Positions 1-44,369 of a DNA stretch of 56,622 nt are shown one piece after another. A program made the translations under genes and the position numbers. The stretch is from Fragilaria crotonensis (taxonomy: Eukaryota > Bacillariophyta > Fragilariophyceae > Fragilariales > Fragilariaceae), in contig JAKSYS010000399.1 in the NCBI GenBank assembly GCA_022925895.1, positions 1 to 56,622 of the forward strand. Direction: 5' to 3'. The first letter of the stretch is position 1. Each line of letters starts with the position of its first letter. The notes under the pieces are model-generated. The model was not told where the DNA came from and searched no databases. It saw nothing but the letters and a program-made list of their open reading frames with translations.

Positions 1-214
1 CCGTGCCAAACTCTATGGCTGGGTGCAGAAAAAAGTCTTTTGGGTAGTAGCCATCGTAGATGTAGTATGCTATAATTTTGGTTATCAATGAATCGAAGAG
101 CGCTCGTTGAGGATTCCTCTATACATTTTGTATATATTCATGTTATGTAACATAATCCGAAATCGTTGCCGATGAGTGCACAATCGCATTCATGAAGAAC
201 ACATCAACCTGAGG

Positions 215-1699
215 TCAGGCCTCCTTGACAAACTTGTAGTTGAAGTCAAAGGCACAGCGGTGAGTCTTGAACTGGCCAATAAGTTTTGTCAGTGCCACAG
301 GGCCGTAAGTCCTGCAATCGTGTCCTGTTTGTTCATCAACTTGATTGGTATCGATTGCATGGTATGCCATCAAATACTGCCGCGCTCGTCTTGCAAATCT
401 TCTGATTCTAACCTTTGTTATTACTTCCTCTGACAGGCAAAAGCACACACTCTTCTTGAAGTTGTCCTTTCCCTTCTTGTCGCGTAAGCTTAGATTTCGA
501 TACGCTCCTTTTGCACAAGCCCAGACATATTCAACACCCTCGCCAGCAAGTTCTGCATGGCATTTTGGAGTCAAAAGGACCGTGACACCAATACTCTTGG
601 CAATGTATTGCAGCATTCCCTCTTCATTTATGAAATCATTGCACATGCCCATTATGTGCTGCAAGCTTGTGCGCTCATCAACTATTCCAAAGTCATCTTT
701 CTTCCCCGTCAGTGAGTACTGCTTCAAATTCTCACCGTCAATAAGTCCTCTTTCCCAGAGAATTTGTGACAAACCTTTTGCTTTCCCTTCCCATCCTTCT
801 TTGATCTTTTCAACAGTCTTCGTGATTGCAATGTTGTGATGTCCACATAGTTCAACTAACTCCCTTTTATTCTTTCCCTTCGTTCCGACACCTTTTCCTC
901 GCAGACTAAGTTCCAACTCGGAACGATTTCGTGGCGTGACAGTTTCCGTTCCGAGTTGGATGTCAAATCGGCATTCTTCTCTCTCGCTCTCACTCATCCA
1001 GAATGGACCGGAATCAGAGGCGGAAAAAAGAAGTGATTGAATGCTTCCGGGCTCAAGCACTCTTTGGAATGGTCCGAGAAAGCCCTCTTCCTGTGTGATC
1101 AGAGTATCTCGCATCGCAGCTGCCTTGCCCCCGTAAGACCTGTTCATCCTATGTTGATTGAGGCCATCCGGACGTTTTTTTGAGTGGCCAGCACTATGGT
1201 CAAACAGGAACACAAAGTCAAAGGATGGGTGCATAACTTTTAGCACATCCACAGCGTCCTCGAACTGGAGTACCATATGATTGTAGGCCCAATAGCCTTC
1301 ACGGTTCTCGCCATATTCAAAAAGAACAAGAAAGGGAGACTTGTCTGCTGTCAGCGGTCGCTTCTCAGCACTTCCTAGGATCTCAACTGCTGCCTCAGGA
1401 TCAGCGTATGTCTGCCCCGCACGTTGAGCATTCACTTGGACAAGTATCTCTGGTGGAAGAGATCGGATAAGGCCATGTTCACGGCAAATGAATGCCGATA
1501 TCATTGTACCACTTCCCTCATCCTTTGGGAGAAGAGGTCTTTCACCGCTCGGGCCAACCCACATCTTTGTCAGGAAAAGGAATTGTTTAAAAATTGCTTC
1601 GTCCTGACCGATGAAGATCACTGCCTTACTGTCGATTGGCTTTCGAACACTGAGGTTGCCTCCGAAGGGAAGCAAAAGAAGTTGCTCCTCAAAGTCCAA
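215..1699 (-). CDS. DDE-type transposase, catalytic region
   Basis: A 494-codon reading frame inside the family-1 transposon. It aligns by eye along its length with the C-terminal transposase frame of the 17128-20627 element: shared GGNLSVRKP, the ENREGYWAYNHM block, LFDHSAGHSKK, the MNRSYGGKAAAMRDT block and HAELAGEGVEYVWACAKG. I recall the same landmarks (D-S-x-x-H, GGK-x-x-x-MRDT, F/CHxEL..IEY.W) in fungal DDE transposases, where the D of the FDHS block and the E of IEY/VEY are candidate catalytic residues. The segment that usually carries the first acidic residue reads MISAF here, without an obvious Asp. The first codons of the open frame come from another frame; real homology starts at PFGGNLSVRKP, so the N-terminus is probably in the ORF just upstream (1689-2030) via a frameshift. 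Confidence 0.7.
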   Translation of the reverse strand: MDFEEQLLLLPFGGNLSVRKPIDSKAVIFIGQDEAIFKQFLFLTKMWVGPSGERPLLPKDEGSGTMISAFICREHGLIRSLPPEILVQVNAQRAGQTYADPEAAVEILGSAEKRPLTADKSPFLVLFEYGENREGYWAYNHMVLQFEDAVDVLKVMHPSFDFVFLFDHSAGHSKKRPDGLNQHRMNRSYGGKAAAMRDTLITQEEGFLGPFQRVLEPGSIQSLLFSASDSGPFWMSESEREECRFDIQLGTETVTPRNRSELELSLRGKGVGTKGKNKRELVELCGHHNIAITKTVEKIKEGWEGKAKGLSQILWERGLIDGENLKQYSLTGKKDDFGIVDERTSLQHIMGMCNDFINEEGMLQYIAKSIGVTVLLTPKCHAELAGEGVEYVWACAKGAYRNLSLRDKKGKDNFKKSVCFCLSEEVITKVRIRRFARRARQYLMAYHAIDTNQVDEQTGHDCRTYGPVALTKLIGQFKTHRCAFDFNYKFVKEA

Positions 1700-2030
1700 C
1701 CTGAGCTGTTACCCAAAAGAAGTACCTCCGAGTCCGATTTTGAAATGTGTGGCGAAAGACTTGAAGCTGCGGTCCGCCTGCTGGAATATCGACCAAATTT
1801 GGATCTGTGCTTGTGAGAGGAAGCATTTTATTCACCACTCTTTTCATTGAACTCAATGAGAACTTGATGTCGTCTCCGATTTGGAACTTCATGTGCATAT
1901 ACATGAGCAGTTGCTCAGCTGGTAGCCATCTCCCATGCAATTGTCGTTCGCTAAAAACCCTCCGCAGACAAGTCAAGATAAAAGCAGATCCATTATGTTT
2001 GCCGTGTGCATCTAAAGTGGAACTGCTCAT
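1689..2030 (-). pseudogene. 5' ORF of the family-1 transposon
   Basis: A 113-codon frame directly upstream of, and slightly overlapping, the transposase frame, in a different phase. A single-base shift near 1700 would join them. It contains no domain I recognise. It may be the remains of the transposase N-terminus, because the intact element elsewhere in the window has a large N-terminal DNA-binding region at this position. Confidence 0.4.
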
Positions 2031-2231
2031 TGTGCACTTGATGTAGCTTTTGAGCTATAGATGCACACGGGAGGTGGATTTGATCAAAAGATAATTGATA
2101 TCGAAGGTTAGTGTCAATGAAGCACGATGTTTGACGTGATGAGTGCATCGGCGGATGGAGTATAGAACCAACATGTCATACTATGGTCTACTGAGGCTAC
2201 CCTAATTTCCCATTTTCTGCACCCAGCCATA

Positions 2232-2828
2232 TTGCTGAATTCCGTACAGTATTTCTAGTCCTGCAGTACGATGCTGCTACGAAAACACGTACTGAGTACT
2301 GATGCAACATCACGAACGACTGCCAACAGAAAAACATTTTTGAAAATTCGGAGGAGAGCATGGATGAAGTCCCTCAGCTACTGCACTGTCAACAGTCACG
2401 TACAATAGGTAACCACATAGTAACTACGTACATCATGGTACTGTCGTACTACAGTATGACAGCGACAGTAGCATAGCAAAACGTAGTGACTATGACTTTT
2501 AATATCCGAGAGTCAGATTCCCGGATGGTCAAGCATCCTGACTGTTACAAAATATCGGCGATCGCATCACCGATGTACATCGATTGCAAAACATTGAGTG
2601 ATTTCCATCAGAACAAGTCACGAACATCAGTATGTCACGTAACGAGAATGTTAATACACTTGATGCAATAGATAGCACTGTACTGTTGCATATATCTGCA
2701 AATCCACGCGAACAAGACGGTCCAGCATCACTTTCAAATTTGCATCAGTCACGATATAACTGAGGAATCAACCAAAGTGATGCACTTTATAAGGATCAAG
2801 ATATTGTTTGGTTTGCTGCGTGTACATG
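2232..2828. other. Intergenic spacer between two transposons
   Basis: No gene seen. AT-leaning sequence with GTAC words (ACGTACAATAGG, TACGTACATCATGGTAC) typical of other spacers in this window. A 61-codon frame at 2486-2671 has no recognisable feature. Confidence 0.5.
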
Positions 2829-3017
2829 TATGGCTGGTTTCATTGTTTTCTTACATGTCGTACAACTTATGTAGGCTCAGTATAAAATTTCAAGATGTAA
2901 AGATTTAGCACCTGACCCTGCATCCTCGCGCATCCAAACAACACGATTGACACCACACAAAAAAACGAGTTGTCGACCATGATGGTGCAGCAACAATTTC
3001 ACCAACTTCCACTTCGA

Positions 3018-3093
3018 AACTGCCGACCCTTTTGATGCACCCAGGTTCAGTATCCATCTGATCACACTTTTCAACTTGCAAGGGTCGGCAGTT
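3018..3093. repeat. Subterminal inverted repeat of family-2 transposon
   Basis: AACTGCCGACCCTT (3018-3031) and AAGGGTCGGCAGTT (3080-3093) are a perfect 14-bp inverted repeat just before the first ATG (3102). The identical arrangement occurs at 17315-17390 in the intact copy, so it is a conserved part of the element, perhaps a transposase-binding or transcript structure. Confidence 0.8.
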
Positions 3094-3101
3094 TGACCAC
3101 A

Positions 3102-3407
3102 ATGAAGACGCTACAGGCACATTACGAACGTTGGCTCAAAGTCGTCAAACAAAAACGATATGACAACGAAGGCCTGTTGGACACGACCTATTTTCAAGCA
3201 ATCAATGCCCAGTTCCAACTAATAAAGCCCTTGGATTTGCTTGATAGGGGCATGGTGCATGGTGAACCAAGAAATTTCTTTTTTGCTGCCGTGACAACAC
3301 TTGATGGCTTTGCCACCAAATCTTACTCAAGTACTGGCCGCCGATTCCAACGAGCTGCAATACAATCTTGCAATTGGTCACTTCAAGTCACATTGTTTGA
3401 ACCATAG
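3102..3407 (+). pseudogene. Fragment of family-2 transposon ORF (N-terminus)
   Basis: Starts with MKTLQAHYERWLKVVKQKRY, matching the start of the 441-codon frame at 17398 (MKTLQTYYQCWLEVVKQKRY). It follows the intact copy through the YFxAIxAQF and GFATKSxxTGRRFQRAA segments, then stops. The remaining interior is degenerate. Confidence 0.75.
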
Positions 3408-4693
3408 CATTATCTCAAACTAAGGACAAAATTAACCTTCCAAATTGTCGTAACAATGAAAAACGTCTTCTCAATGTGTCCTGGCTGACGAAGAAGTGTA
3501 GCACGTCACCTATCGTCTAGTACGAGGACACGCTCCGGACACCCGAAAGAAATCTGCCGCAAAGCCATTTGGTCATGACTTGACGCTAGTACAGCGTCGT
3601 GAAACTTGGAGAACCAAAACTGGTGGTTGGTGTGTTCCCTCCTGGATCAACAGGCACAGACACGGCTAGGTTGCTTTACAGAGCCAAGGCGCCTCAAATA
3701 GGTAAGGCAACAGGAATGTGGATGCTTCCAACAACAGAAGAAGGATGACCATGTCTAGTTGCGTGTCGGTTAGGCATTTGAATGGATTTGTGGACAACAA
3801 GCGGACGTAGCGGCGACCCTTCCATGACGTATGAAAGTCACATACTCAACAAACGCGATACTCGTGAAGAACTCAGAGTTTTGGACAGGGTTGGTGCTTC
3901 AAGCTATCATCAGAAACAACTCGGAAACCGTGATTTGGTCAACGTTGAGCTATGGCTTCATCCGCTGCTTTCCCGGAGGCGGAGTTGAGTCACACATCCC
4001 TTGCAACTTTCTCCCAATCAGATGTTTGTCGCTTTATTGCTGCTGTCTGATGGGATACATCACGTCCACCTCAGGAATGGTATTGCTTGCAAGAAATAGA
4101 GGACGTTGAAATTGAAGGCACCACTGTCAGTATTGAAGAAACTGTAATGGCTGGGGTAAACGTTGTTTGCAATTTGAAACGCTGGTACTCAGCAACCAAG
4201 TCTCTGAACTCAAAGAAATTCCCGATCCTGTTCAAGACTCGATCAAACCAGTATCTCGCAAGCATTTCCAAACAGAGATCCCCTGGCAAGCTGTCTCGAT
4301 ATTCCGAGGCAATGAACGCCCTCAACACTTCGGAAACGAAATTTTTGGTGTCAGATGCGATTGAGTATAGCAGCGTGGGCGAGATGCGTGACTAAGCGTC
4401 TACATCGACGCATGTCGTTGAACTCTACATGGAGCGAAGAAGGGTTCAAGGGAACCTCCTTGGTCAATGTTGATCCCAGCTTCGTGAATTGATTTGCATC
4501 TGCACCTGAAAAGTGTGTTTTCTACTAATGAAGACCTGTGTTGGAGTTTGGGTACAATATGATTGAGGCGAGGTGGTTGGAGATCGATGCGTCTCCCTTG
4601 TTTTTGAGAGCGTTGATGAAAAGATACGGATGTGTTGTCTGCAGCTAAATTTTTTTCATTACTGAGGCTACGTGCTCCAACGATATGCAGTCT
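3408..4693 (+). other. Degenerate interior and 3' end of family-2 transposon
   Basis: No convincing gene. Short frames (3782-3988, 4087-4395) carry no domain I recognise. From about 4650 the sequence again matches the 3' terminal region of the intact copy, as far as the CAG at 4694-4696 where the next insertion begins. Confidence 0.55.
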
Positions 4694-5114
4694 CAGGAGG
4701 TTCCGGAATTTTGGCTTTTTACTGTATTCGGAGTACTGCACCACGTCGAATCTGCAGATTTCCCACGTGATAAATCATGCATCATGCTATCATGAAGCAA
4801 AAAGAATCCATGCTACAAAACGTCAATCGCGACCACGACAAAAAGTTTATCCAATGATAAAATGTCACATCGATTGATGCAACAATTCAGGCATATAAAT
4901 AGAACGTGTATGACTTCATAATAGAGGTTTTACTGTGTAGGGATAAACGAATATTCGGTTCGACTGAAACGTTTCGCTTTTATGTGAAGCATTTCGCTTA
5001 AGCGTTTCGCTTCCACGAAGCGTTTCGCGTCAGCATTTCGCTTCAGTGACCCGTTTTGCATTAATAGGGTTTTTCCTCTTGCAGGACCTCGTCGCAGAGA
5101 CGAATTGGAGCACG

Positions 5115-6216
5115 GAGGTTCCGGAATATTGACTTTTTCACTATACTGGAGTACTGTACACTGTACACGCTGCATTATCGAATGCTTCCTCTCTACCGTA
5201 GGTTTTCATTGTTCAATGGATGGACAAAGCCATGACAATCGAAACGTCAGCATCGGTTCTGTCATATGCGATAAATTGATGTGAAAAAGATATACATGGT
5301 ACATCTACCGACTTGAATAGGATGACATTTTAAAATCTGTCCGTTTCTTATTTAGGGGTAATGACAGAAAATGATAAATTTGGACTGAAGCATTTCGCTC
5401 TCTTGAAGCAAACGCGGAAGCGAAATGCTTCGTGGAAAGCGAAACGCTTCCAGATTTTACTCCCGTGGAAGCGAAACGCTTCAACCAATAGCGAAGGAAT
5501 GAGCTCGTCCAGCCCTACGATATAGACCGTGCTCCAATTCGGTTCTGCTACGAGGTCCTGCAAGAGGAAAAACCCTATTAATGCAAAACGGGTCACTGAA
5601 GCGAAATGCTGACGCGAAACGCTTCGTGGAAGCGAAACGCAAGCGAAATGCTTCACCTAAAGCGAAACGTTTCAGTCGAACCGAATATTCGTTTATCCCT
5701 ACACAGTAAAACCTCTATTTTGAAGTCATACACGTTCTATTTATATGCCTGAATTTTTGCATCAATCGATCTGACATTTTATCATTGAATAAACTTTTTG
5801 TCGTGGTCGCGATTGACGTTTTGTAGCATGGATTCTTTTCGCTTCATGATAGCATGATGCATGATTTATCACGTGGGAAATCTGCAGATTCGACGTGGTG
5901 CAGTACTCCGTATACAGTAAAAAGCCAAAATTCCGGCGAAACGTTTCAGTCGAACCGAATATTCGTTTATCCCTACACAGTAAAACCTCTATTTTGAAGC
6001 ATTCAAGCGTTCTATTTATATGCCTGAATTTTGCATCAAATCGATCTGACAGATTTTATCATTGAATAAACTTTTGTCATGGTCGCGATTGACGTTTTGT
6101 AGCATGGATTCTTTTTCGCTTCATGATAGCATGATGCATGATTTATCACGTGAAATCTGCAGATTCGACGTGGTGCAGTACTCCGTATACAGTAAAAGCC
6201 AATATTCCGGAACCTC
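5115..6216 (-). mobile_element. Same small TIR element, inner copy in reverse orientation
   Basis: Bounded by GAGGTTCCGGAAT (5115) and ATTCCGGAACCTC (ending 6216), flanked by ACG at 5112-5114 and 6217-6219. The inner copy itself supplies the unbroken version of the outer copy's target: its reverse complement reads GAGCACGGTCTATATCGTAG, while the outer copy reads GAGCACG | insertion | ACGGATGAATATCGTAG. Both the 3-bp duplication and the self-insertion are therefore supported. Because the inner copy is inverted, the region forms large fold-back arms (4697-5114 against 5557-5936; 5115-5420 against 6350-6636). Confidence 0.8.
5664..6216. repeat. Direct duplication of one arm inside the inner element
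   Basis: The segment CGAAACGTTTCAGTCGAACC... through to ...AAATTCCGG occurs twice in tandem (about 5664-5936 and 5937-6216). The first copy is cut at TTCCGG and joined to CGAAACG. This explains why the inner element (1.1 kb) is longer than the outer one (~0.84 kb). Confidence 0.75.
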
Positions 6217-6655
6217 ACGGATGAATATCGTAGAATGGACTAGACTGATTCCTACGCTAAAAGTGCCTGGAGCGTTTCGCTTCCACGGGGTAAAATCGGA
6301 AAGCGTTTCCTTCTACGAAACATTTCAGCAAGCGTTTGCTTCAAGAGGCAAAATTGCTTCAGTCAAATTAACAATTTGTCTGTCATTACCCCTAAATAAG
6401 AAACGGACAGTTTTTAAAATTTCATCCCTATTCAAGTCGGTAGATGTTAATGGAAAAGTATATCTTTTTCACATCAAAAAATCATAGCAAATGACAGAAC
6501 CGATGCTGACGTTTCGGATTGTCATGGCTTTGGCCATCCATTGAACAATGAAAAACCTACGGTAGAGAGGAAGCATTCGATTATGCAGCGTGTACAGTAC
6601 TCCAGTATAGTGAAAAAGTCAATATTCCGGAACCTCCAGGATGAAACCAGCCATA

Positions 6656-7368
6656 TGCATATGTGATATGCTTTTGCTAGACGTGATACTACCACTTCGC
6701 GCACCACCCTGTAGAAAAGAGAGTGGGACACGATGTTTCTGTTTGTCTGAAGTTTTCTGAAGTTGGGTGCATCGCACCCGTTCACTATATAATTGATGTA
6801 TGTACGTATTGTCTAGTAGGATAATTCTTCCGGTAGGTCGTATCCAACCTTTAACGGTAGAATTTCTGCTGTGAACAAATCGTTCGACATGGGAATGGAT
6901 ATAGCATATGTAGTAGACCGAGTAGAACTACGGTACAAGTAGCATCCACGAAGGACACGAAGTTCCACTGTGTTTGAAACTTGGAAGTGAGCGATATGCT
7001 GCACCTGTCCGACGTTTTTCGAAGTCACTTTTTTATAAGTACAGCTCCGAGTACATAGTAACCAGAAAGAGTCGTTATTAAGTCGAGCACGTGAATCGAC
7101 TTCGAGTGTAACTACTCGTACTTGCAGTGCATACTTCGGAGTTCGATATATGGCAAACAAAAATCAGATACAAAGAATCGATCAAATAACGCGCGCCGGG
7201 AGGGCGAATTTCGTCGTTGATAGGCGATTCCGTAACGGAAAAACGTCGGTCGCCAATTGAACCCAAGTAAAGTGAGTAACACATTTCTTCCCACAATTCC
7301 CTTGCCATCGTCCTGACATTGCAACAAGTTCGAAACTAAAAGTTGAACAAAACACGATACCTACGAGA
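6656..7368. other. Intergenic, upstream of the secreted protein gene
   Basis: No gene seen. Contains GGGTGCATCGCACCC (about 6766-6780), a short palindrome. The last ~250 bases before ATG 7369 are the likely promoter and 5' leader, but no unambiguous core element could be fixed. Confidence 0.45.
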
Positions 7369-8685
7369 ATGAGATTCACAACCATTTCATTAGCGGCGGC
7401 CTTGCTCCTCAGTGCGACTGAGTATGTCATGGCAGCCAAGGATCAGAAAGAAACATCACTTTTCAAGGATGATCAGAGCTACTGGAACCGTCTCCTTGTA
7501 ACGAGCGACGTTAGTTCAATCTCAAACGTCCCATCGGCCGTCCCATCCGATGTCCCTACACCTGTGCCAGAAACACCTCCTCCTACCCCTGAGACTCTTC
7601 CTCCTACCCCTGAAACTCTTCCTCCTACCCCTGAGACTCTTCCTCCTACCCCAGAGACTTTGCCTCCTACCCCAGAGACTCTGCCTCCTACCCCAGAGAC
7701 TCCTCCTCCTACCCCAGAGACACTTCCACCCACGCCTCCTCCAACCCAAGAGCCGACTCCACAGCAGCCGATGCTTCCACCTTCTGACTTATGCTTTGCT
7801 CAAGTTGACGTTACATGCATCCCTCCAGTCGATCCTGCAAGTCCAGACGGTGCACTATTCGAGGATTGCGATTCCATTAACATTGCTCCAGCTGAGTGTA
7901 CTGAGTTCGTTAACTTGTTGACTTTCCGCTTCAACGGAGGTGACTGCCTTGATTCCAACAACATCCAGGATCCTCGTATCTACAGTTGCGAAGACTTTTT
8001 CGACGGTCCTCCGGCTGCTGACGATTTTGGTGCTGAGGCCTACATGATCATCACTGACATCAAGGGACAAGGCATCAACTACTTCGACGGCATTATCGCG
8101 GTTGGCGACGTGTTCAACATCACCAACATCCTTCCAAACCCAGTCATCGTGGCCAACGTGAATGTTACGATCTACGATGGCGAGCCTGCGCCCGAGAACA
8201 TTCGCGAGACGATCATCATCCACACCTCTTGCTCCCAAGTGACCTTCTTGAAGGATCGCTATGGAGTTCTTGAGCTCATCGGCTTCCAAAACCCAAGTCA
8301 AGGATACCAAGCATGTATCGTTCCTGTGTCGTTCGACTTTGCCATCCAGAACACTGCTGAGGTTTCAATGCTGTTGTTGAGTCGTTGACCGTGGTCACGA
8401 ACTTTGACCCACCGAACAATTTCCTCAACTACACTGATGAGGTTGTTGGCTTTGTGTTGAACCCTGGCACTGAGCTGCCGTTGACGAGCAACCCCATCAA
8501 CATTGATCTTTCCATTCGCAAGCGTTACACTGCCCAGGCGACCGTGCAGGAGTTTCCCTGAGGGCTTCAGCTGCCGCGGCAGTGGTTTCACGAACTTCAC
8601 GGCTGGTGTAGCTGACACCAGACCAACACCATCCCTGCCGGTCCATAAGGCTGTTCAACTCACCGCCTTGTGCGGGGACGTTTGA
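7369..8685 (+). pseudogene. Secreted proline/threonine-repeat protein (frameshifted C-terminus)
   Basis: Starts at ATG 7369 with a clear signal peptide (MRFTTISLAAALLLSATEYVMAA), so the product enters the secretory route. Residues ~60-130 are a proline-rich linker of PTPETLP repeats, followed by a cysteine-containing globular domain. Such linkers are common in diatom cell-wall or surface proteins; the exact family was not identified. The open frame stops at 8388. Two one-base changes, near 8361 (one G short) and near 8553-8555 (one T extra), would extend it through AVVESLTVVTNFDPPNNF and GFTNFTAG to a TGA at 8683-8685. The continuation is coherent coding sequence, so these are recent mutations or assembly indels. 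Function in wall or adhesion is inference. Confidence 0.7.
7565..7740 (+). repeat. 21-bp coding tandem repeat (PTPETLP)
   Basis: About eight 21-nt units with consensus CCTCCTACCCCTGAGACTCT(T) in frame with the secreted protein. Units differ mainly at synonymous positions or at L/P in the sixth or seventh residue. The number of units is likely variable between strains. Confidence 0.85.
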
Positions 8686-9310
8686 AGAACGACGACGTTG
8701 ATTCCAAAGAAAGGAAGACGCATTCATCCATCGATACAAATTGATATCTTGTGTTAAAAAAGTTAGCGAAAGTGAGTATATTTGACATGATTGCCTGTAG
8801 TCTTAGAAACGCATAATTGATGCCTTTTGATGCTCATTCCGGAATTCTTCGAAGATTGTAAGTTCTTGTGTTTACAAAGTGGTTCTTGTGTTTACAAAGT
8901 GTGAGTATAATTGATCTACGTTTGCTTGATGTTGCCCAAGAAGCGAATCATTGATACTTTCGATGCTAATTGCAATCCATTGAACCTTGCAAATTGACAA
9001 ATCGTGTGAAATAAAGTTAGCGAGAAGCTATTAGTTTGATTCTCAGACTCGTTGAGGTTGATGATCGCATTGGCCTGTATGTGGTGATCCTCTCCCTCAG
9101 GTGGCCCATCCAAACCATTTTGCAAGATTCAGAGATTTCGTTCGTACGGGTAAGTGAATTGCTGCCATCAAGGTTGGAAAATGATCCACATTTGTCAGTG
9201 GCCTGATGCTCAAGGCAGATAGGAATGCGGTAACCAATGATTGATGACTTCATGGATCTCGGACCGCAGTAGACAGGGCTGACAGCTCCTTCCCTCGATA
9301 TAAAGTCCAT
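8686..9310. other. Spacer between two convergent genes
   Basis: No gene seen. It lies between the 3' ends of the secreted protein and the M23 peptidase. Two similar stretches (AAAGTTAGCGAAAGTGAG near 8760, AAAGTTAGCGAGAAGC near 9012) hint at an old local duplication. Confidence 0.45.
8862..8901. repeat. Perfect 20-bp tandem duplication
   Basis: GTTCTTGTGTTTACAAAGTG occurs twice head to tail (8862-8881, 8882-8901). Confidence 0.9.
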
Positions 9311-10193
9311 TCAATAAAGTAAACCCAAGACGAGTCGTGGATCGGGATATTGCAGCAAAGCTCTGGGGCGATCGTCCACAGAGACCACTCCCGGCATGTC
9401 GTGCGTCTCTGGCTGGAACAGTGAGCTGAAAATGAACGTGAGAGATTCGCCATCCTCCATTTTCATGGATGTCTCCCATGCGCCCTAAGCACTGTCCTCG
9501 CTTGATGCGTTTACCTGGATACATGCCAACGATGGACTTGTCATCTAAATGTCCGTATAGAGCCCACAGTCTGCGCGCGGTGCCGTTTGGGAAGTTACCC
9601 AGGTCATGTTCCACGACAATCACATTCCCATAGTCTCCCAAGTCTGCATTGTATCCCGCTGAGTGCACGACACCTTTGCAAAAACCATAAACCTTTGTGT
9701 GTAGCGGTGCGTCCAAATCAATTCCAATGTGCACGGTGCGTTGACCGGCAAAACCATCAATTTGATGACTCGCATCATCAAACATGTCTGAAGCATACAA
9801 GTTGACGCGATTCTCATCATACCTTCCAACATGGAAACCTTTCAGACGTTGCGGTCGTTTAGACCGATTAGTCCGGGCATCTCGTCGTTCCTCATCCGTG
9901 GCTAGTTCATCGACTGCCGATGTAGTTCTCAAATCCAAGACTTGGTAGTTCGGAATACGTTTTAGTATTCCGGCGGAACCTTCGCTCCAAACGTGAGGAA
10001 ATTTGACGACGGGATGAAATTTGCGGCGATCTTCGTCTGTAATATTCAGTATGTTCGGGTAGAGGTCGAGGGGAGATAGAAAATCAGGAGGACTGAATTG
10101 CGAGTCAACTCTGCCGAGGGTCGGCGATTCATCTTGCGCTGCAACGTTCGCGAGGAAACAGGCGTACAGCAACCAACTATGCGTTACTTTCAT
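9311..10193 (-). CDS. Secreted M23-family metallopeptidase (one frameshift)
   Basis: ATG at 10193 opens a signal peptide (MKVTHSWLLYACFLANVAA). The M23 (lysostaphin/LytM-like) core is clear: HIGID (His155, Asp159), GDYGNVIVVEHD, ALYGHLDDKSI, and HVHFQL with the second metal-binding His at 254. M23 enzymes are zinc endopeptidases that usually cleave glycine-containing peptide cross-links, so the target may be bacterial peptidoglycan. That target is inferred for a eukaryotic host. The frame as read runs to 9210 with an unlikely tail. Removing one base of the GG at 9411-9412 gives VSVDDRPRALLQYPDPRLVLG and a stop at 9311-9313, which I take as the true end. About 295 residues. Confidence 0.82.
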
Positions 10194-11810
10194 TGTGAGC
10201 TGCGTTCAGTGCCAATGCCTGTTATGTGACTAATAGAGAGATGCTGTACTTGAGGTGCACTGAAGTGGTGGATATTGTGTTCGCTCTCCCTGTGCCCAGG
10301 GACATGCGGGAATTCCTTCTTAACCTTATTCGGCATTCAATTCGGGAGTAATTGGATACATAGAACGGCTACTACAACGTTATTAAATAACGTCTTGAAG
10401 GTAACCTTGCGTACCCAGAATCCCATCGAGCTCGCCAGTCACACTCCAACAACGTTCTGAGAGACAACAATCTTCAACACGCTTCCAGCGAAGAGGACGA
10501 TTTGCATACCTTCTTCGGACGAAGAAGACATGCGAAGAAGGTTTTGGAGTGACACACGTAAAAATATTCTACGTTGGTTCAGTGTGCAACATGTACCAGA
10601 CCAGACTTTTATGTGAGCACCTTCTTCGACGGCTTAAGTAGAAAACGACATCCAACGAAGAAGGTTTCTTCAAACGAAGAAGATTTGGAAGCAGGCTTCT
10701 TCGGGCGAAGAAGGTCCTTTCAGCATTCTTCGTTCATAAGAAGGTTTTGGGAAACGCGCAAGCCAAGCTCACGAGCGCGAGTCTGACATTTTCGGTATGC
10801 TCAAAAATATTTTGCCGTTATCCATCATTGCATTTAAAAACAGTCAACGGCAAAAGACGGTTATTCTTTCCGACTTGAGAAGAATTTCCGCATGTCCCAG
10901 GACCCCAGACGCTCACATATCACACATACAAGGGGCTACGTTGATGTATGTCTGTTTTAATGTATAATTCGTGTACACAACACCACAACATACTACTCCA
11001 GTACACTCGTATCACCCAACCTAAGGTACAGTAGCACGAGTACGGGTACTAGTACCTGTAACGTCCAACAAACATGAAGACGGTCGTTACGTGTGCTCCG
11101 AGTATGAATAACGGCTCGGTTAAAAACACGTTTCTAACATAATAGTATCTTGCAGTATTTTTTATACCCAGGGTATTCCTATATATCATAGTTAAAAGTA
11201 TCAATTCAATGATGTACATATGCATACCCGAACCATGTACAACACTTTCATACGTATTATATATGTCATTTACTCATTACTTTACGTTTATGAAAAGTAG
11301 GCGCCGGTTATTCTTGTACATACTATAAACTATAACATACTCCGAGTACAACGTACAAGTACCACGGATGCATACCGCAGTAGGTGGACTACGTAGTTTG
11401 CCCGTTTGCCGACATGAACGATCACGTGTTGATTTATACGCTACTACTCGTAGTAGTTCAGTCGTTGTCCTTTCTACGTAGGTTTCAAAAACATAAACAC
11501 GTCGGGATAAATGTTTTTTGTATTAAAAAAATAAGAATGCACTGAATGGTTTTTCAAGCGAAGCTGAACCCCGACCCCGATTGCCAGCATCACTTCCGGC
11601 AGAGCTGATCAATCCCGAACCCAGGACTCAACTCCTGAGAGCATTTTCTCACCTACCGGTAGACCATCTGTGGACACCCCATCCCTTCTTTGGTTTCCTC
11701 TCATAGTTCCGCACATCGACTGAATCAGAATTGATACTAATTGTGGCAAGTTAAGAAGAGTGAAGCACCGACCTTGGCTTCTCTGACCAGCCGTTGACTA
11801 CGTATCAGGC
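10194..11810. other. Long intergenic region between divergent genes
   Basis: No gene seen. It holds the upstream regions of the M23 gene (leftward) and the alpha/beta hydrolase (rightward). It includes a cluster of CTTCTTCG/CGAAGAAG words (10510-10745), many GTAC-rich short palindromes (10990-11470) and one CTACCGGTAG at 11653-11662. Confidence 0.5.
10510..10713. repeat. Cluster of CTTCTTCG-NN-CGAAGAAG palindromes
   Basis: Two perfect 18-bp palindromes, CTTCTTCGGACGAAGAAG (10510-10527) and CTTCTTCGGGCGAAGAAG (10696-10713), with further GAAGAAGG / CTTCTTCG half-sites between and just after them. Organisation resembles a short hairpin satellite; role unknown. Confidence 0.75.
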
Positions 11811-17060: not shown

Positions 17061-17314
17061 GGCATATGACATATGATATGACATCTGACATAGTATGGTA
17101 CTAGAGTACCTGGTACTGTAGCCCGTATGGCTGGTTTCATGGTTTTCTTGCATATCGTACAACTCGTGTAGGCTGAGTATAAAAATTCTCGACCTCATGT
17201 TACTCCCTCCGACCTTGCACGCTCGCGCATCGAAATAACACGAATAGTGCCACACAAAAAAAGAGCTGCGGACCATGATTGTGTAACGACGCGTTCACCA
17301 CCTTCCACTTCGAA

Positions 17315-17390
17315 ACTGCCGACCCTTTTGCTGCAGCCAGCTTCGTCATCAACGTGAGGGCAGTGTTTAGCTGGCAAGGGTCGGCAGTTA
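17315..17390. repeat. Subterminal inverted repeat upstream of transposase ATG
   Basis: AACTGCCGACCCTT (17315-17328) and AAGGGTCGGCAGTT (17377-17390), ending 7 bases before ATG 17398. Same as in the 2831 copy. Confidence 0.8.
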
Positions 17391-17397
17391 AGCAAAA

Positions 17398-18723
17398 ATG
17401 AAGACACTACAAACATACTACCAATGTTGGCTCGAAGTCGTTAAGCAGAAACGATATCAGGACAAATGGCTGTCGGATGAGACCTATTTTCGAGCAATCA
17501 AGGCCCAATTTCCGACTCTTGAGGCCCTTGGCTTTGATAGGGGTATGATGAACAAAGCCATTTCATCTTGTGGAGGTGTCACCCTTGATGATTTCACCGA
17601 ATCAAACCAAACTGGCCGATTCAGACGAGCAGCCAAAGGCCACGATCCATTCGGAAATCCTAAGAGAAAGATTTGGGGATACTTTATAACAAAACCAGGA
17701 GGATTGGTTGAACGCCCACCAGATGGAAAGAAGAGTTTTTTGTCATTATTGCAAGATGTAAGCATAAATGATCGCTACAGTGTTGCTCGGGGATTGCCAG
17801 AAGTTGTTGATTTGACGACGGAAATTGCAGAGCAATCTTCTGCTAAACGAAAATCTGAAGCATATGCAGCGGCAAAGGATGAAGCAAAGAAGCCCAAACA
17901 TGGTCCTTTTTCAGCAAAGATTGTCGAGGAGACGTATTGGGATAGTCCCGAAGCTAAGAAACTCTTTCTTGGAAACGCAAACGATGAACGCGACGTCCAA
18001 AACGTTCTTGAGCAACGAATTGAGCGACTCCAGCAGGCCAATAGGACGATGGATGGTTGGAAGGACGTTATAGATAAGCACGACAAAGATAACCTCTGCT
18101 CTTCTTATGATGTATTCATAATTAGGCAGCGGTGTTCAATACTCTGCTTAGCCTATACGTACGCGTTAGAGGAGATGAATTCTGTACGGTGGATCGAAGA
18201 TTGCTGTGCTCAGGCGATTGGTGCTTGTAGCAGGATGGGGATTGAAGCTGCCGCAACAACCGAGCGAACGGTTGCTGGCTGGAACATTCTATTGAGGGCA
18301 AATCGCGAGCACTTCCCGTTGCCAAATCCCAAGATACTACACAAGCAAAAACAACCGCTTCCCGATTTGCTGGAATACTTTCGGGAGGAGATAACGTTGC
18401 CATGGCTCGGGTACTGTATTGAAAACCTTGCTGATCTGACTGTTGAGTTAGCAAGGAATGAATTGATCTTGTCGTTGATTCCAAGTGCAGCGACTAGAAC
18501 TAGTAACACGACTATTGCTGCAGACGAGGAAAGTGACAACGAACTACAGTCATCACCACTAGTAGAATACGAAGAACAGGAACAAGAAGGAAACAAAAAC
18601 AAACGATTAGAGACTGTCTACTTCAGGTTTATATCGAGTGTCCTATTTCATTATCAACAACATGGCGATGGCTCCGGAGAATTGGCTTCTCATATGATAC
18701 AAGGAAGAAATCCTTTTTTGTAG
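17398..18723 (+). CDS. Family-2 transposon N-terminal ORF
   Basis: 441 codons from ATG 17398; the same start is conserved in the decayed copy (3102). Charged and helical in composition, with a coiled-coil-like NVLEQRIERLQQAN segment and an acidic EDEESDNE-type linker near residue 380. The last ~20 codons are probably read in the wrong phase: in another frame the sequence around 18660-18740 gives WRWLRRIGFSYD followed by FFVDGHERPNVVFRRNEF. The latter is a landmark I recall just upstream of the catalytic domain in related fungal transposases. A frameshift or unspliced intron near 18600-18660 therefore joins this ORF to the catalytic part. Confidence 0.65.
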   Translation: MKTLQTYYQCWLEVVKQKRYQDKWLSDETYFRAIKAQFPTLEALGFDRGMMNKAISSCGGVTLDDFTESNQTGRFRRAAKGHDPFGNPKRKIWGYFITKPGGLVERPPDGKKSFLSLLQDVSINDRYSVARGLPEVVDLTTEIAEQSSAKRKSEAYAAAKDEAKKPKHGPFSAKIVEETYWDSPEAKKLFLGNANDERDVQNVLEQRIERLQQANRTMDGWKDVIDKHDKDNLCSSYDVFIIRQRCSILCLAYTYALEEMNSVRWIEDCCAQAIGACSRMGIEAAATTERTVAGWNILLRANREHFPLPNPKILHKQKQPLPDLLEYFREEITLPWLGYCIENLADLTVELARNELILSLIPSAATRTSNTTIAADEESDNELQSSPLVEYEEQEQEGNKNKRLETVYFRFISSVLFHYQQHGDGSGELASHMIQGRNPFL

Positions 18724-20518
18724 ATGGACACGAGCGACCAAACGTCGTCTTCAGACGAAACGAATTCTGCACTCTCTATCTCACAAAACTTGAGCCACGT
18801 ACGCATCGGTGGATTCAAGTCACTGCTGAGACTGTAGAGAATTGGAAAAGAGACAACAAAGTTTCAGAACATGACAACCGTGGATACAATTATGTTTCGG
18901 TCGACAACAAGAACATGATTGAGTTCCATGTCGACGATTTAGACTTACTTCACGAGTATGCAGTAACAATGGGCTTCGGTTCGTTTGGAGGGAATTTGAG
19001 TGTGAGGAAACCGCAAGGTGTCAAGCCGCTCATGATCTTTGGCCAAGACGAGAGTGTCTATAGTCAATTCTTACTTGGTCGAAATCGCCAATGGGTTGGA
19101 CCAGAAGGTCAACGCCCCTTCTTCCGAAGACCGATGGTTTAAGTCTTATGATATCCGCCTTTCAATCGCGGGAGACTGGTTTCGGGGTTCAGATTAGCAG
19201 AGTTCAATTGGAGGAGATCAATGAAGCACGTCGCGGAAAAACTTACGTTGATGTCGATGCAGCAGTAGCAATCCATGGACAAGCTTCAAAGAAGGACTTA
19301 AAGCGATCTCCATTTGTTGTCTATTTTGAATTGGGAGCGAACAACGAGGGATATTGGACGTATAATCATATGGCCATTCAATTCGAAGACTGCGTTGATT
19401 GCCTAAAAGTTATCTTCCCTCAGTTTGACTTTGCCTTGTTGTTCGACCACTCCCAAGGTCATGCGAAGAAATTGGCAAATGGGTTGGATGCCTATAGTAT
19501 GAACCGAGGGTTTGGAGGAGTGCAACCAAGAATGCGTGAGTCAATCATAAAAGCAGAGGATGGATACCTTGGCATGAACGAACGTACCGTTAATGTCGGT
19601 GACACACAATCGTTTGTCTTCAGACCTGGCAATGCTGGGCCGTTCTGGATGACCGTCCAAGAAAGAGAACTCAACCGCCAAGACCGAATACTCCCACCTC
19701 TGTCTGGTACTCCTCGGACCAGGAACAGGACATTTTCTGAACTTCAAGCAGAGCTTCGTCCTCTCAACGTCTTGAATGAGCGACGCCAATATCGACTTGC
19801 GGAATTGCAAGAACTTGCAAAAACAAACAATGTTGACGTCAAAGTCATACGAACACGAGAAAAGAAAGGCTGGCAAGGGCAACCGAAGGGCCTTTTGCAG
19901 GTCCTTTGGGAAAGGGGATGGATCGATGAAGCAAATCTTGAAAAATACACCATGGATCCAGCAACCGACGACGATGGTGAAGTACTTGAGGGTGCGGAGG
20001 AGTGGAGTTTAAGGGTCCTGATGGCGAGCTGTCTCGATTTTGCGGAGGAGATGACTGCGCTCCAACATGTTGGGAATGAGCTTGGTGTATCCGTCATCAT
20101 TTCGCCTAAATTTCATGCGGAGTTAGCTGGTGAAGGCATCGAGTACAGCTGGGGAGTGACAAAGGGGCTTTACAGACGTAAGCCGTTGCATTCTAAAAGG
20201 AGCAAAGAAGCTTTCAGAGGATTAGTAGTTGAATGTACAAGCAGGGATATTCTTCGAACTGAGACCGTGCGAAAGCTTTCGAGACGAGCAAGGGCTTACA
20301 TTTGTGCATACTATTCCCTTTACGAGAGCAAGAACAAGAAGAACACCGATGGTACACCACCAGCACTTACGTTACCCCTCATAGAGCGTCTCGTCAAGGC
20401 ATTTAAAACCCACAGGGCTGCAATTGACTTCGACGCCGGCTTTGTGAATGGATTTGTACCTCAACTGGAGAACTGTATCTTCCAAATGAACTCGAAAGAG
20501 GTGGTGTCAGAAGAATGA
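18660..20518 (+). pseudogene. Family-2 DDE-type transposase catalytic region
   Basis: Two frames join near 19115. From 18660 to there the frame reads WLRRIGF, VDGHERPNVV and GSFGGNLSVRKP. From 19091 the next frame continues LMISAF, NNEGYWTYNHM, LFDHSQGHAKK, MNRGFGGVQPRMRES and KFHAELAGEGIEYSWGVTKG to a stop at 20518. One extra C in the run CGCCCC (19114-19117) restores continuity (RPLLPKTDG), exactly the sequence seen in family 1 (RPLLPKDEG). Candidate catalytic residues are Asp in LFDHS and Glu in GIEYSW; the usual first Asp position reads MISAF. The domain acts on the element's TIRs by analogy with other DDE transposases. Confidence 0.7.
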
Positions 20519-20629
20519 GAGGTGGGTGTGGATCGAGTTTTGATGGGATGATGGTGCGTCAACTAAATTTTTAGATTACTGAGTCTACGTGCACCTACGA
20601 TATGCAGTCGCAGGATGAAACCAGCCATA

Positions 20630-23310
20630 TCAATATTCGATGGTCAACAGAACGTATGTACTAATGTGTGTATCCATATACGTATGTAGTGCCAATTACA
20701 CGTCGGTAATCGTAATCCGTGCCGCATACTGCTGGCTACTAACTACTAGCACGTAAGAGTAAAAAGAGTAGCCGAGTACAGTACTAGTACTGGGTACTGG
20801 TATGGTGTGTCATAGCAAAATGTGAAATGTCAAATGACGTCAATAAAGACGTCACTCTAATCATCGCCACATCGTGTATACGTCGAGAGACGTCATTGCG
20901 ATGCCTTCTTCCGATTTGGATCCTGATACAGTACGACAGTACGACATAATACCGGTAGAGTATTATGCGTAGCTTATGGTTTGTGGTACTTCTGTATCCT
21001 TGTATGTCATACCTGGTACAAGTAACAGGTATGAAATACACATGCCACATGCCACATGCACGATCGACCTACGCTAGTATCGGTGGCTTCGTGCATGTGT
21101 TGCAAGTCAGTTTAGTAGAGGACTATGTAGCAGTATGTACTCCGAGTACTTCGCATTTTACTGCCTGCTGCCTGCTACAGAAGTAATCTGAGTACGTTGC
21201 TTCAGTCCCGAATGTGCAATCTGTTACTGGTATCGCATACAAGAACTGGTTCACCAACAACGTGGCATTTAGCAATCATATCATCCGCGTTCGCCAAGCA
21301 AGAAGAACAGTTCATACAACCAGAATATGATACGATTCTGACACCAAATCAAGATTAACGACATATGCCGAGGAAGCCAAAATGTTTGTTCTGTTGCAAT
21401 GAGGCCCTGGGGCATACTTAAGAATCAAAAGTGATTTGTCAACTCCAATTTCCAAAGACAGAGGAACCTTCAATATGATGTTCTGATTGTCAAGGTCATG
21501 TGTGCAAAGAGTTAAGAGAATGTTATGAGTGCTTGTCATCCTTTCTTAATGTATCAATTGGGTGCCACTGGTAAGAAGGGAGCATCTCTGGAAACAAAAT
21601 ACTCTTGCCAGCATTCAAAACCATGTGTATGGAGTAGCACCTCGTCATGCATTTTTGGTGGATTGCTTCACAATGTCAAAGCCAATTGAATATGCCAACA
21701 CTGTGCCGAGTTTTATAGTGAAGAATGTCTACGTGTCATGAAAAATAACTAAGTTACACAAGGAAGGAATTTTCCTCAATTTGCTAACTGCATGCACAAT
21801 ACGAGTTGGAAGAACTGACTCAAGGTGTGGCAGGCATCATAGAAGCAAGTCAGATGTTTGGCATTGTTGTGTGGGATAGTGTAACAAGAACTTTGCTTGG
21901 CTTGTATACAATGAAGCAAGCATCGTGAAATGAACTGCTCAATGTTGCTGCCAAGCAACGGTATTACTACTTACAACTGCTGATGGCAATTTGAATGCCA
22001 TGCATGCTGCCACGCCCAATATAGTGGATGCATCAGAACATCTTAATAATGCTGTCAATTTTCATCTTTGGTGACCATATAGCAAGGATTCAGTACTAGT
22101 CAATACAAGATGCTGCTCTTCATGATACCTAACTACAATAGAAGAAGGTGTCATGGCCTCCACCATGCTACAAAATGTTGCCCCTCGTCCTCTACGAGAC
22201 AATATTAAAACAAAAGATGTGACCTGCCATGAAGAATAAGTTTCAGCTCCTGCCATCTTGGAATTGTATTGGACAAAGGGGCTGATACTTGAGAGAAGAT
22301 GGAGAAGTTCTACAGACAACCCTACAATGTCCTCTGACCTAATAAACTATTGAATGAGGATCCTGCTTGTGAGTAATGAAGTTGATTTCATTGTACATTG
22401 TCAGCATAACTATCTGCTCCAATGGTGTTAATAGAGACAGACTGAGGAAATCATGTCAATAGTTGTAAAGGATTACATATTATCCCTCTCCAGTGCGCAA
22501 ATTAGAAAGCCTACCAACCATACATCGCAGGAGATGTCTCTTGGACACTTGTCTTGGACAGTAGCTACATTTGTCACTTGTGCGCGCCCATTGAGCTGAA
22601 ATCTTGGCACCATGAGTGTCAGCACTTGAATTATCAGATGCACTACTGCTCCAACCAGTAATGACAGTGGTGAAGGTGAATCGGTTAAAAGGACTGCTGA
22701 TGTTCTTCTCGTTCTTGAAAGAAATGATGATGCCAAGTGTACACGCAATGAAGTGTTCTCGGACTGCATCCTAATAGGAATATTTTCTGTAACTCGTCGT
22801 TTCTGTTCACAGGGGTGGTAATTCGGTTTTCTTACAGAAACAGAAACTTTTCTGTTGCTGCTTAAAAACTCATATGAGTGGGCCTAAATGCTGCTAGCTA
22901 GCTACTCTAGAGAGCTTAAATGAAGAGTATTTATACCCCTGGTGTGAGAAGTGTACTATACCGTATACCATAATACCGTTACCTAAGCACCGGGAGGAAT
23001 TGTGCATGACATTTCCGAAACAGAGCTCATCTTTTGAGAGTGATGTCATACCTTTTTGGTCCAACAGAAAAACTGAAAATTAAGATTCAAACTCATCTTC
23101 CTGTATTTGATGTAGGGAGTTTCTTCTTTGTGGCGCATTGATGTGAGTAAGACTCTGTCCTGCACATTCCATTTGTTTTTTGCATCAGCAATGACGTACG
23201 TGTTCCAGATGGAGGACTGAAGACAAAGGCAATGATACAATCTTTATTTACGTATGTTCAGCAGATGCCAGGAATTCAAGAAGGGGGAGGAGAATGGTGA
23301 CGGTGAATTG
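20630..23310. other. 2.7-kb stretch without a recognised gene
   Basis: 20640-21190 is GTAC-rich spacer with TACCGGTAG at 20950-20958. 21190-22800 has a more coding-like composition but is riddled with stops in all frames and gives no family I recognise; it may be old transposon remains. 22800-23310 precedes the recombinase remnant and may contain its degraded N-terminal half. Confidence 0.45.
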
Positions 23311-35788: not shown

Positions 35789-38700
35789 ATGTCACTTCGT
35801 CGAGGAAGCATAGAGGTGCCGTTTGGCAGAAGCACGGCGGCTAGTGTGGATTTAAGCTCCGTCACGGATAGCAACTACCCTCGCAGCGAGGAGGATGACG
35901 ATTTGGAGTTCTCAACAGCTTTTGATGAAGTCGTGCTGTACGGCAGGACTCGGGAGACAAACCTTTTGCTGGACGCATTTTCCCGATTGTCTAGCAATAA
36001 TCAACCCAAGAAGGCGACGAAAGTTATTGTCCATGGCGACGCCGGATCTGGAAAGACATCACTTGTCGATCTTCTTCGTAAGCCGGTATTCGAAAGCAAC
36101 GGCTTCTTTGCGTCAGGAAAGTATTTTCAAAATTCGTCAGTTCAAGAACCAAACTCCGCCATCATGGCAGCTCTTTCGGACTTGTGCGATCTCCTTATTC
36201 AATCGCCAGATTTTACGGAAGAACGAAGGATGCAGTTTCAGCAAAAACTGGGAGTAGAAAATGGACGCATTTTGGAGAAGTGCATCACCAATCTATCTCC
36301 CCTCCTTGCCAACGCACTGGGAGAGGATAGTGGAGGTTCAGACACATCTGTTAGGAACGTCGCGGCATATACCAAATTTAAGGTAGCCTTCAAAACCTTT
36401 TTGCAAGCCGTGGCTTGCGACGAGCGTCCGATAGTGCTTTTCATCGATGACATTCAGTGGATGGATGAAGACTCAAGAAAGCTGATTGAGGTCCTGCTTC
36501 ATGACCAAGAGCTTTCAAACATCATGATCATTTTGGCTTACCGCAACGAAGAATCTGCGAGTGTTGCTGATATCTTCGATGAGGTGAAGTGTAACGAAGA
36601 CACGTTGGATCTACCACTGGATAATCTTGACGACGACGGTGTTCTTGAGCTCATCTCTAGCATAACTGGGTCCTCTACCTCCTCGACAGAAGCGTTGAGC
36701 AGCATCATTACCAAGAAAACGATGGGAAATCCGTATCATGTGATGAAACTCCTCGAATTTCTTGAGTGGGAGGGATTGCTGGTGCAAAACGCAAATACGG
36801 GATCTTGGGAGTTTGATGCAGACCAGATTCAAAGTGAAGTTACCATCTCTATCACTCTCGCAGAAATCCTAGCGAGGAAGGTACAGTCGCTCCCAAGTAG
36901 GGTTCAAGAAAGCCTTAAGATCGCATCTCTGCTTGGTTATCGATTTACTGACGAACTTGTGGTGCAAGTACGGTCATATCTTCTTGACCATTTCGGAGAC
37001 GACGAGTTGGACGAGAGACTGCATTCTAGTGAAACTTTTTCAGTGCAGACGGTATCGACTGCAGTCAACAACGCTGTGCGCGGAGGCTTTGTCGAGAAGA
37101 CCAAAGTAGGATATCAGTTCAGCCATGACACCATCCAAACTGCTTTTCAGGCCTTGATTGATGAGGAGGAGAAGGGACGAATGCATATTGCTATTGGGAA
37201 AGTGTTGCTGGAGATCGGTGATGTTGAATCCAGGTATCGTGCGTCCGTTCATCTCTCTGAAGCGCCTCATTTTATGCGTGACGACGCGAATCGTGTTGAG
37301 TTGGCTCGCCTTCATCTTGAAGCAGCCAAGTATTGCAAAGAGAGGAGTGCATTCATTGATGCGGCCGCGGCGCTACATCGTGGACTCGCAACGTTGGATG
37401 ATGAGAGAAAGTGGACGGATTTCTTTGATTATGCATTTGAAATGACAGAAACTCTTGCAAGAATGGAGCTTATCGTTGGTAATTATGACTCATGCACGGC
37501 GATGACGAACGATGTTCTACATCGTGCAAAGACAACGACCATGAGGATCAATGCTTTGATAATAGGAGTTGAATGTATCATGGCGCAGAATGATGTGGAG
37601 GCGTCAATCGCTGCTGCCATTCGTGCATTGTCTTCATTGGGAATAAAAATACCAAGAAAGGTATCCTTTCGACTCATGGGTTCGAACCTTTTGAAGGTGA
37701 AGTTGATGTTAGGTCGGAAGACTGATGGAGACATTTTGGGCTTGCCGTTAATGAGAGACGAGGCTGCGACAGCCACATCACGAATTCTTGTAAATTTATG
37801 CACCTACTGTTTCCTGAAGGATGAAGCGAAGCTCGGGGTTTACGCAGCTTTTTTGGCATTACAATTGACACTCAAAGGCGGACTCAACGCGCACTCGGCA
37901 TGTGCGTTAGCGATTTATGGTGTTGCTCAGCTTTCCAGTGGCAACTACCGTGGAGCATACAGATTCGGCAAGCTTGCTCTCGCCCTTGTGGAGAAAATGC
38001 AGGTCCGAGATGCAGAATGTGCCACGACAGTTATGTCACTCTCATTGCTGGTACATTGGTACGAACCAGTTCGTGGTATGACAAAGCCACTTCGACAAGC
38101 GGCGAGCATTGGGTTGGAAGTCGGTGATGTTGTTTACGGGACTTATTGCCTTGCCATGATGTACGGTACAGAAACCATGATGGGGAAGAATCTTGAACAA
38201 CTAGAAGCCTCAATGAGGGCAGATGCTCGGTCAGTAGCTGACTTTTCGCAGGAGGCAATGGGCATGTGGATGAAACCATCTATGCAGTATGTGCTTAATT
38301 TGCAAAAGGATGGAGTGTCAAGCTGGCTGGAGGTGACGACTCTTAGCGGAGAATTTATGGATGAAGCCATATTTACTCAAAGAGCTCTCGCATCGAACCA
38401 TCGGGTACTCGTTATGATGACTTTGAACTATAAGGCTATCTTGGCATGTTCCTTCGGATTCTGGTCAATGGCTGAATCTCTTTTTATTGAGTTGATCTCG
38501 ATGGGGAAGACCTTCTTCTTCAGCTATGCGGCAATGTCAAATTCTCTCTTCGGTGGAATCGCATCCTATTCTTGCTACCAACAAAATGGGAAACGAAAGC
38601 ACCTTAAACTGGCAAGAGAGAATCGCACCCGACTTGCTCGCGCTGTGTCTCGTGGATGTCCGAACGCCCCGGCGTATCTGTCATTTCTGGATGCCGAGGA

Positions 38701-44149: not shown

Positions 44150-44369
44150 CGCTGGAAGGAATAGCCGCGCTCAATGAGTAGTTGATTAGCGCTAAGCGTA
44201 GGCTTCGTAGGCCTGCTGTCGATAGTTCAAGGTGTCTCGTTTCTCCTATACTCTGGAGTCAAGTCTTCGTCAGCAGCTTCAGAGGAGTATGAATGCCGCG
44301 CGATGAGAGCTTTATAATGCCCTAAGTGCATACCGGAAGGGGACGTTGTAGTGGATTCGGACCAAAGTT

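Follow-up and report, generated by a model that had tools for sequence, protein, structure and literature searches.

In the double Ds of maize, one element lies inverted within a relative of itself, and the composite has four ends. Passages of PMC3260210 mention double Ds together with the chromosome-breaking property of nested Ds; they also report that nested Ds elements are rarer than nested retrotransposons, probably as a result of chromosome breakage, and that B73 yielded no double Ds. Selection against a double inverted structure would be expected from maize, since nested Ds can break chromosomes (the same passages of PMC3260210). For rice, a section of PMC10664404 states that MITEs within MITEs which move together are not uncommon, citing Tarchini 2000 and Jiang and Wessler 2001. 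In Medicago, MtPH-M-2-IIa combines two related PIF/Harbinger elements (passages of PMC2213677); it differs from the structure considered here in spanning 21.7 kb, in carrying a Gypsy insertion and in being built of autonomous-type elements, and those passages report no movement of it as a unit. Finally, the NuwaI group of the PHIS superfamily, as outlined in excerpts of PMC4482050, makes CWG duplications, has ends that usually begin with GGG, carries a Myb/SANT ORF and is reported from animals only.

The nest described here is a further case of the kind represented by MITE multimers and double Ds, found in an alga and with unusually complete sequence evidence. It resembles double Ds in being an inverted insertion into a relative with a target duplication, but Ds is a hAT element with 8-bp duplications, whereas here a MITE with 3-bp duplications is involved and the double is present at a second locus with a duplication of its own. 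With the rice multimers it shares the nesting of MITEs in MITEs and their joint movement; the differences are that the partners belong to one subfamily and are inverted, and that empty sites are available for the inner insertion, the outer insertion and the second landing. Very likely, two distinct MITE copies became nested a single time and the double then moved whole, as one unit. The locus is a documented case, backed by empty sites, in which a double inverted element nevertheless transposed. The host is a photosynthetic alga, probably a diatom: the genome has 61 matches to PF00504, the light-harvesting family, and one of these proteins (L080) has as its best PDB matches FCPI-7 (6ly5) and Lhcr11 (6l4u), both diatom proteins, with 297 and 294 bits compared with 215 for the following one; for a second (L081), LHCI chains of 9vfj score best.

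The window, that is, the whole stretch of DNA analysed (contig C336, 56,622 nt), had been described in a first-pass annotation as holding a three-level nest of transposons, and the nest is confirmed with its coordinates unchanged. Its parts, with two regions of doubtful sequence and a related element further along the window, are as follows (C614 and C214 hold the other two copies of the double, and C435 is a simple element):

2831-6653, unstranded: outermost TA element, with TA flanks and a terminal inverted repeat
4694-4696, unstranded: CAG target duplication, left
4697-6636, plus strand: double (composite) MITE, A-B-A'-B'
4697-5114, plus strand: half A of the outer element, grouping with C435
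5112-5114, unstranded: ACG target duplication of the inner insertion, left
5115-6216, minus strand: inner element, related to the outer and inverted; its length in C614 is 836 bp
5662-6209 (5662-5935 and 5936-6209), unstranded: 274-bp tandem repeat of the A' end, without counterpart in C614 and C214
5936-6690, unstranded: low-identity island, covering the second pass over the A' end, B' and the sequence to just beyond the TA element
6217-6219, unstranded: ACG target duplication, right
6220-6636, plus strand: half B' of the outer element; the sequence is poor here in the window contig
6637-6639, unstranded: CAG target duplication, right
17128-20627, plus strand: fuller related TA element with empty site 1; ORFs 17398-18723 and 19091-20518

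The outermost element is bordered by TA at 2829-2830 and 6654-6655, and its ends form a 15-bp perfect inverted repeat, TATGGCTGGTTTCAT, with the TA counted in, which bears out its original identification as a TA transposon. Its body (2831-4696) is related to 17128-20627 but shortened and decayed; the fuller element is likewise flanked by a TA duplication on both sides. The left part of the body has 76-77% identity to 17125-17550 and to several genomic copies. The small element at 4697-6636, which had been credited with a CAG duplication, has the expected flanks and ends. GAGGTTCCGG starts at both 4697 and 5115, and CCGGAACCTC ends at both 6216 and 6636. The inner element was correctly recognized as reversed, with ACG flanks and the same ends, but the length assigned to it, 1102 bp, includes the 274-bp tandem repeat; that repeat is missing from the other two composites, and a length of about 836 bp applies instead. 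The only ORF of at least 120 aa in the composite (6062-6487, with a TTG start) crosses the junction of inner and outer elements.

The small element is a MITE: it is shorter than about 1 kb, has short ends in the form of terminal inverted repeats, contains no gene or other coding capacity, and makes CTG or CAG duplications of fixed length. Simple copies of 827, 831 and 794 bp (C764, C435 and C407) are flanked by duplications of CTG, CTG and CAG, respectively. The wider group was approached through the terminal 10-mer GAGGTTCCGG, for which the 62.1-Mb assembly has 216 occurrences on one strand and 214 on the other; the reversed but uncomplemented 10-mer, used as a control, occurs 106 and 101 times, about half as often, so that roughly half of the single 10-mer matches may be due to chance. 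From 100 listed of the 430 places with GAGGTTCCGG, 23 plus/minus pairs about 0.8-1.05 kb apart were picked. Identical 3-bp flanks were found in 20 of these 23 chosen pairs (10 CTG, 7 CAG, and one each of CTC, CAT and TAG) and differing flanks in 3, in agreement with the earlier expectation that other genomic copies would show 3-bp duplications. The 17 pairs with CTG or CAG on both sides match the double itself, which is flanked by CAG in the window and by CTG in C214; the ACG of the inner insertion is an exception to this preference. The 23 pairs form groups of 9, 10, 3 and 1, and the window's subfamily has only 24-32 terminal bases in common with the wider-group elements that were fetched.

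A source of transposase was sought among longer relatives. Two candidates for autonomous partners, with 3.6 and 4.3 kb between their ends (L032 and L033), were set aside because they contain short ORFs only. A third, L034 (C41:88162-96191), is 8,030 bp long, has a CAG duplication and holds a DDE_Tnp_4 fragment (33.7 bits against a cut-off of 24.8), but its ends match a subfamily other than the window's, and the gene looks broken. L034 also bears a biotin/lipoyl-domain fragment (2e-14) that may have been captured from the host. Its 7 kb are not taken to have entered a MITE at a later time, since the nine MITEs of the L034 subfamily that were compared stop at differing L034 positions (422, 449, 530, 536 and others). 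Differing stop positions argue for separate internal deletions, as in deletion derivatives; the positions are a reading of BLAST ends, and L009 and L017 have further pieces. In the 4 kb inspected of each of two transposase relatives (L078 and L079), no GAGGTTCCGG ends were found at up to 2 mismatches, a result that is neutral with respect to a link. No intact transposase was seen for the window's own subfamily. Because DDE_Tnp_4 is common in this genome (150 scored matches of 333 candidates in the assembly), finding it within a single element is weak evidence. The likeness to NuwaI consists of the 3-bp CWG duplications, to which the DDE_Tnp_4 fragment in L034 may add; on the other side, the ends here begin with GAG (GAGGTTCCGG), the host is an alga, and a scan of seven L034 ORFs gave no Myb/SANT match, in an element that is possibly decayed. 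We use PIF/Harbinger-like as a working label for the window's element, which is not a proven member of NuwaI.

Empty sites had been proposed for both insertions, one at 20608-20616 and one in the interior of the inner element, and in each case the joined flanks do align across the junction. At empty site 1, the alignment of the joined CAG flanks to 20560-20636 opens a 3-base gap where CAG is duplicated; it also contains several mismatches and one single-base gap within a run of T. At empty site 2, the joined ACG flanks find their counterpart in the middle of the inner element itself, and a 3-base gap again marks the duplication, here of ACG. The right flank of this second site aligns poorly in the window and exactly in C614. 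The C614 junction, GGAGCACG followed by GTCTATATCG, runs uninterrupted in the simple elements C764 and C407 and in the inner element; C435 reads it with one mismatch.

When half A (4697-5114) and half B (5115-5520) were used as queries against the genome assembly, both halves were found at six loci only, namely the composites C336 (the window), C614 and C214 and the simple elements C435, C764 and C407. The order A-B-A'-B' is present in C336, in C614 (123290-124962) and, reversed, in C214 (4354-6007), and the internal junctions ACG-GAGG and CCTC-ACG are kept in all three composites. Among the 100 listed of the 430 GAGGTTCCGG places, no other plus-plus-minus-minus quadruple within 2 kb was seen. 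C614 matches the window past both sides of the TA element, and over the TA body the two show 0 substitutions in 1,866 aligned bases and differ mostly by indels. Judged by this match, C336 and C614 are one locus, present as an allele or as a second assembled version, which leaves a single independent second locus, C214, that bears the double.

The C214 copy has CTG on both sides as its own target duplication, and its site is known in the empty state. The joined 60-bp flanks are identical to C181 at 120/120 bases, C95 matches except for 4 gap bases, C267 matches at 85%, and C446 is a fifth place with a flank similar to that of C214. The host site is a dispersed repeat (C214, C181, C95 and C267; sequences L044 and L075-L077), and in 5.6 kb of C214 (L044) nothing matches the window outside the composite and a few flanking bases. 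C181 and C95 have in common a near-identical 1.46-kb block with differing outer flanks. Since the same double occurs at C214, where it has a separate duplication and the site is also known empty, the double is a mobile unit and may have been complete before it reached the TA element.

The first-pass annotation had called the inner element a copy of the outer one, and here the comparison of halves led to a different result. Inner A halves show 0 substitutions among the three composites and 10-13 against outer A halves; the corresponding counts within the composites are 1-4 for the inner B half and 1-3 for the outer A half, and the B' of the window differs by 53-62 substitutions from every other B half. 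The outer A and outer B halves group with C435 (local supports 0.924 and 0.963, respectively), and the inner halves fall apart from the outer halves in both half trees, although some half groupings depend on few sites. Whole elements behave in the same way: outer and C435 differ at 9/831 positions, inner and C435 at 20/822, and outer and inner, in C614, at 17/825, making the last two distinct copies. C764, with 14 substitutions to the inner element and 19 to the outer, does not seem clearly nearer to the inner part, and C407 is distant from both. The shared ACG junctions and this grouping argue for a single nesting event between two distinct copies, after which the double transposed as a unit.

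A further possibility is that the inner part arose from the outer element itself, by autointegration or inverted duplication, as the inverted match of the two halves over nearly their full length might suggest. This is highly improbable. The 17/825 differences and the grouping of the outer element with another locus speak against it, and the second copy has a complete set of ends and an ACG target duplication, which favours an ordinary insertion. In addition, the autointegration products described in passages of PMC3952818 are deletion circles or inversion circles, with no added full copy.

The nesting of two distinct copies can be pictured as follows. A non-autonomous MITE of about 830 bp from the GAGGTTCCGG group would have been struck near its centre, at ACG, by a reversed copy of the same subfamily, yielding a 1.65-kb double with the order A-B-A'-B'. 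A transposase working on the outermost A and B' ends would then shift the double as a single unit. In this way the double would have come to sit at two loci, the TA element (window and C614) and another dispersed repeat (C214), with separate 3-bp duplications. It is directly observed that the internal junctions are shared, that the outer duplications are separate, that the sites also occur empty and that the halves group as described. The transposase that moved the double was presumably of the PIF/Harbinger type and supplied in trans. That the double is a stable, new four-ended mobile unit, spreading as such in an alga and within a CTG/CAG group earlier known (as NuwaI) only from animals, seems rather unlikely.

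Nests often serve to date transposons relative to one another from one sequence, and here that use is a trap, because a nest that can itself be mobile may have had its layers assembled elsewhere. The order of events had been thought readable without outside data. Part of that order stands: it is secure that the inner element entered the outer one and that the TA element predates whatever landed in it. Equally secure is at least one move of the double, whether between the TA locus and C214 or from elsewhere to both. An initial stage with only the outer element inside the TA element is not secure, and this step cannot be read from the window alone, given the same double at C214 with its own CTG duplication and a site that is empty in C181, C95 and C267.

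Two histories for the last step have to be weighed; whether the double was born in the TA element and then jumped to C214, or the reverse, the number of events is the same. In the first history, the outer element entered the TA element, the inner element entered it there, and the double later jumped to C214. Its economy equals that of the opposite direction, and column 25 of half A, where C614 and C214 share a C and the other 8 rows, C336 among them, have A, looks as though C214 derived from a C614-like TA version. However, this support is one site, the A of C336 may be a consensus error or the result of conversion by the inner arm, and the searches with A and B found no outer-only TA copy. 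We regard this history as tenable, though tentative. Alternatively, the double may have been born at C214 or at an unseen locus and inserted ready-made into the TA element, to which we would give about an even chance. The double demonstrably moves whole, and the C214 repeat, with 15 clean substitutions in 1,457 aligned bases relative to C181 and C95, is old enough to be the birthplace, but the column-25 substitution leans the opposite way and an outer-only copy at C214 was likewise not found in the A and B searches. Because C336 is the contig with the poor stretch, the column-25 substitution is given little weight, and neither it nor the divergence of the C214 repeat copies decides the direction of the jump.

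The low-identity island of the window (5936-6690) matches C614 at 91% over 777 bp, between bordering segments at 99.3% and 99.8%; in bins of 200 bp, identity to C614 is 83.5-96.5% in the four bins of 6000-6799 and 97-100% in the other aligned bins of 1-10300. Clean substitutions number 44 in 689 bases of the island, compared with 0-1 apiece for the four neighbouring stretches tested. The island begins exactly where the sequence steps back 274 bp over the A' end (5936), before continuing through B', and it contains a 22-base string similar (95%) to the end of a 595-bp insertion present in C614. We consider it likely, from the contrast with C614, that the 274-bp repeat and the sequence of 5936-6690 are assembly artefacts, introduced by gap filling or as a mixed consensus. 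One might instead take the tandem repeat and the divergent B' as real features of a second allele, since the window and C614 also differ structurally elsewhere (in the 595-bp insertion and in about 340 bp at 2359-2699). This is unlikely in view of the excess of substitutions over the neighbouring stretches, the coincidence of the island's onset with the step back, and the string resembling the insertion's end, as would be found in a mixed consensus. The nest is unaffected by the faulty stretch, because C614 shows it cleanly; a gap-like assembly fault is nevertheless able to lengthen such nests. The 595-bp element itself has CCACATAAAAAGTGCC ends and a TA duplication (L043:3713-4307, which is C614:125012-125606), and it is cleanly absent from the window, where the TA empty site lies at about 6690-6691. 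The segment of about 340 bp at 2359-2699, without counterpart in C614, has no matching inverted repeats at its ends.

The outermost element resembles Tc1/mariner in its TA duplication and short terminal repeats, but differs in having no recognizable transposase domain at the Pfam cut-off. Three ORFs of related TA elements in the window gave no family at the curated Pfam cut-off, and a PDB sequence search with the TA element's second ORF returned only two weak, unrelated matches (E 1.2); the predicted structure of this ORF is unusable (mean pLDDT 33.9). Related TA-element proteins are encoded at 215-1699 (minus strand) and 19091-20518 (plus strand) of the window; they have 43% identity and the conserved motifs FDHSxGH and HAELAGEGxEYxW, have no Pfam family at the cut-off, and perhaps represent an undescribed transposase family. 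Elsewhere in the window, two long and similar ORFs of 1081 and 1101 aa (35789-39034 and 50483-53788, plus strand) form a local duplication, and both contain GDAGSGKTSLV, which we take to be an ATPase-like motif. Between them, adjoining ORFs at 40480-46888 (minus strand) resemble a non-LTR retrotransposon, with endonuclease, reverse transcriptase and RNase H recognized by eye.
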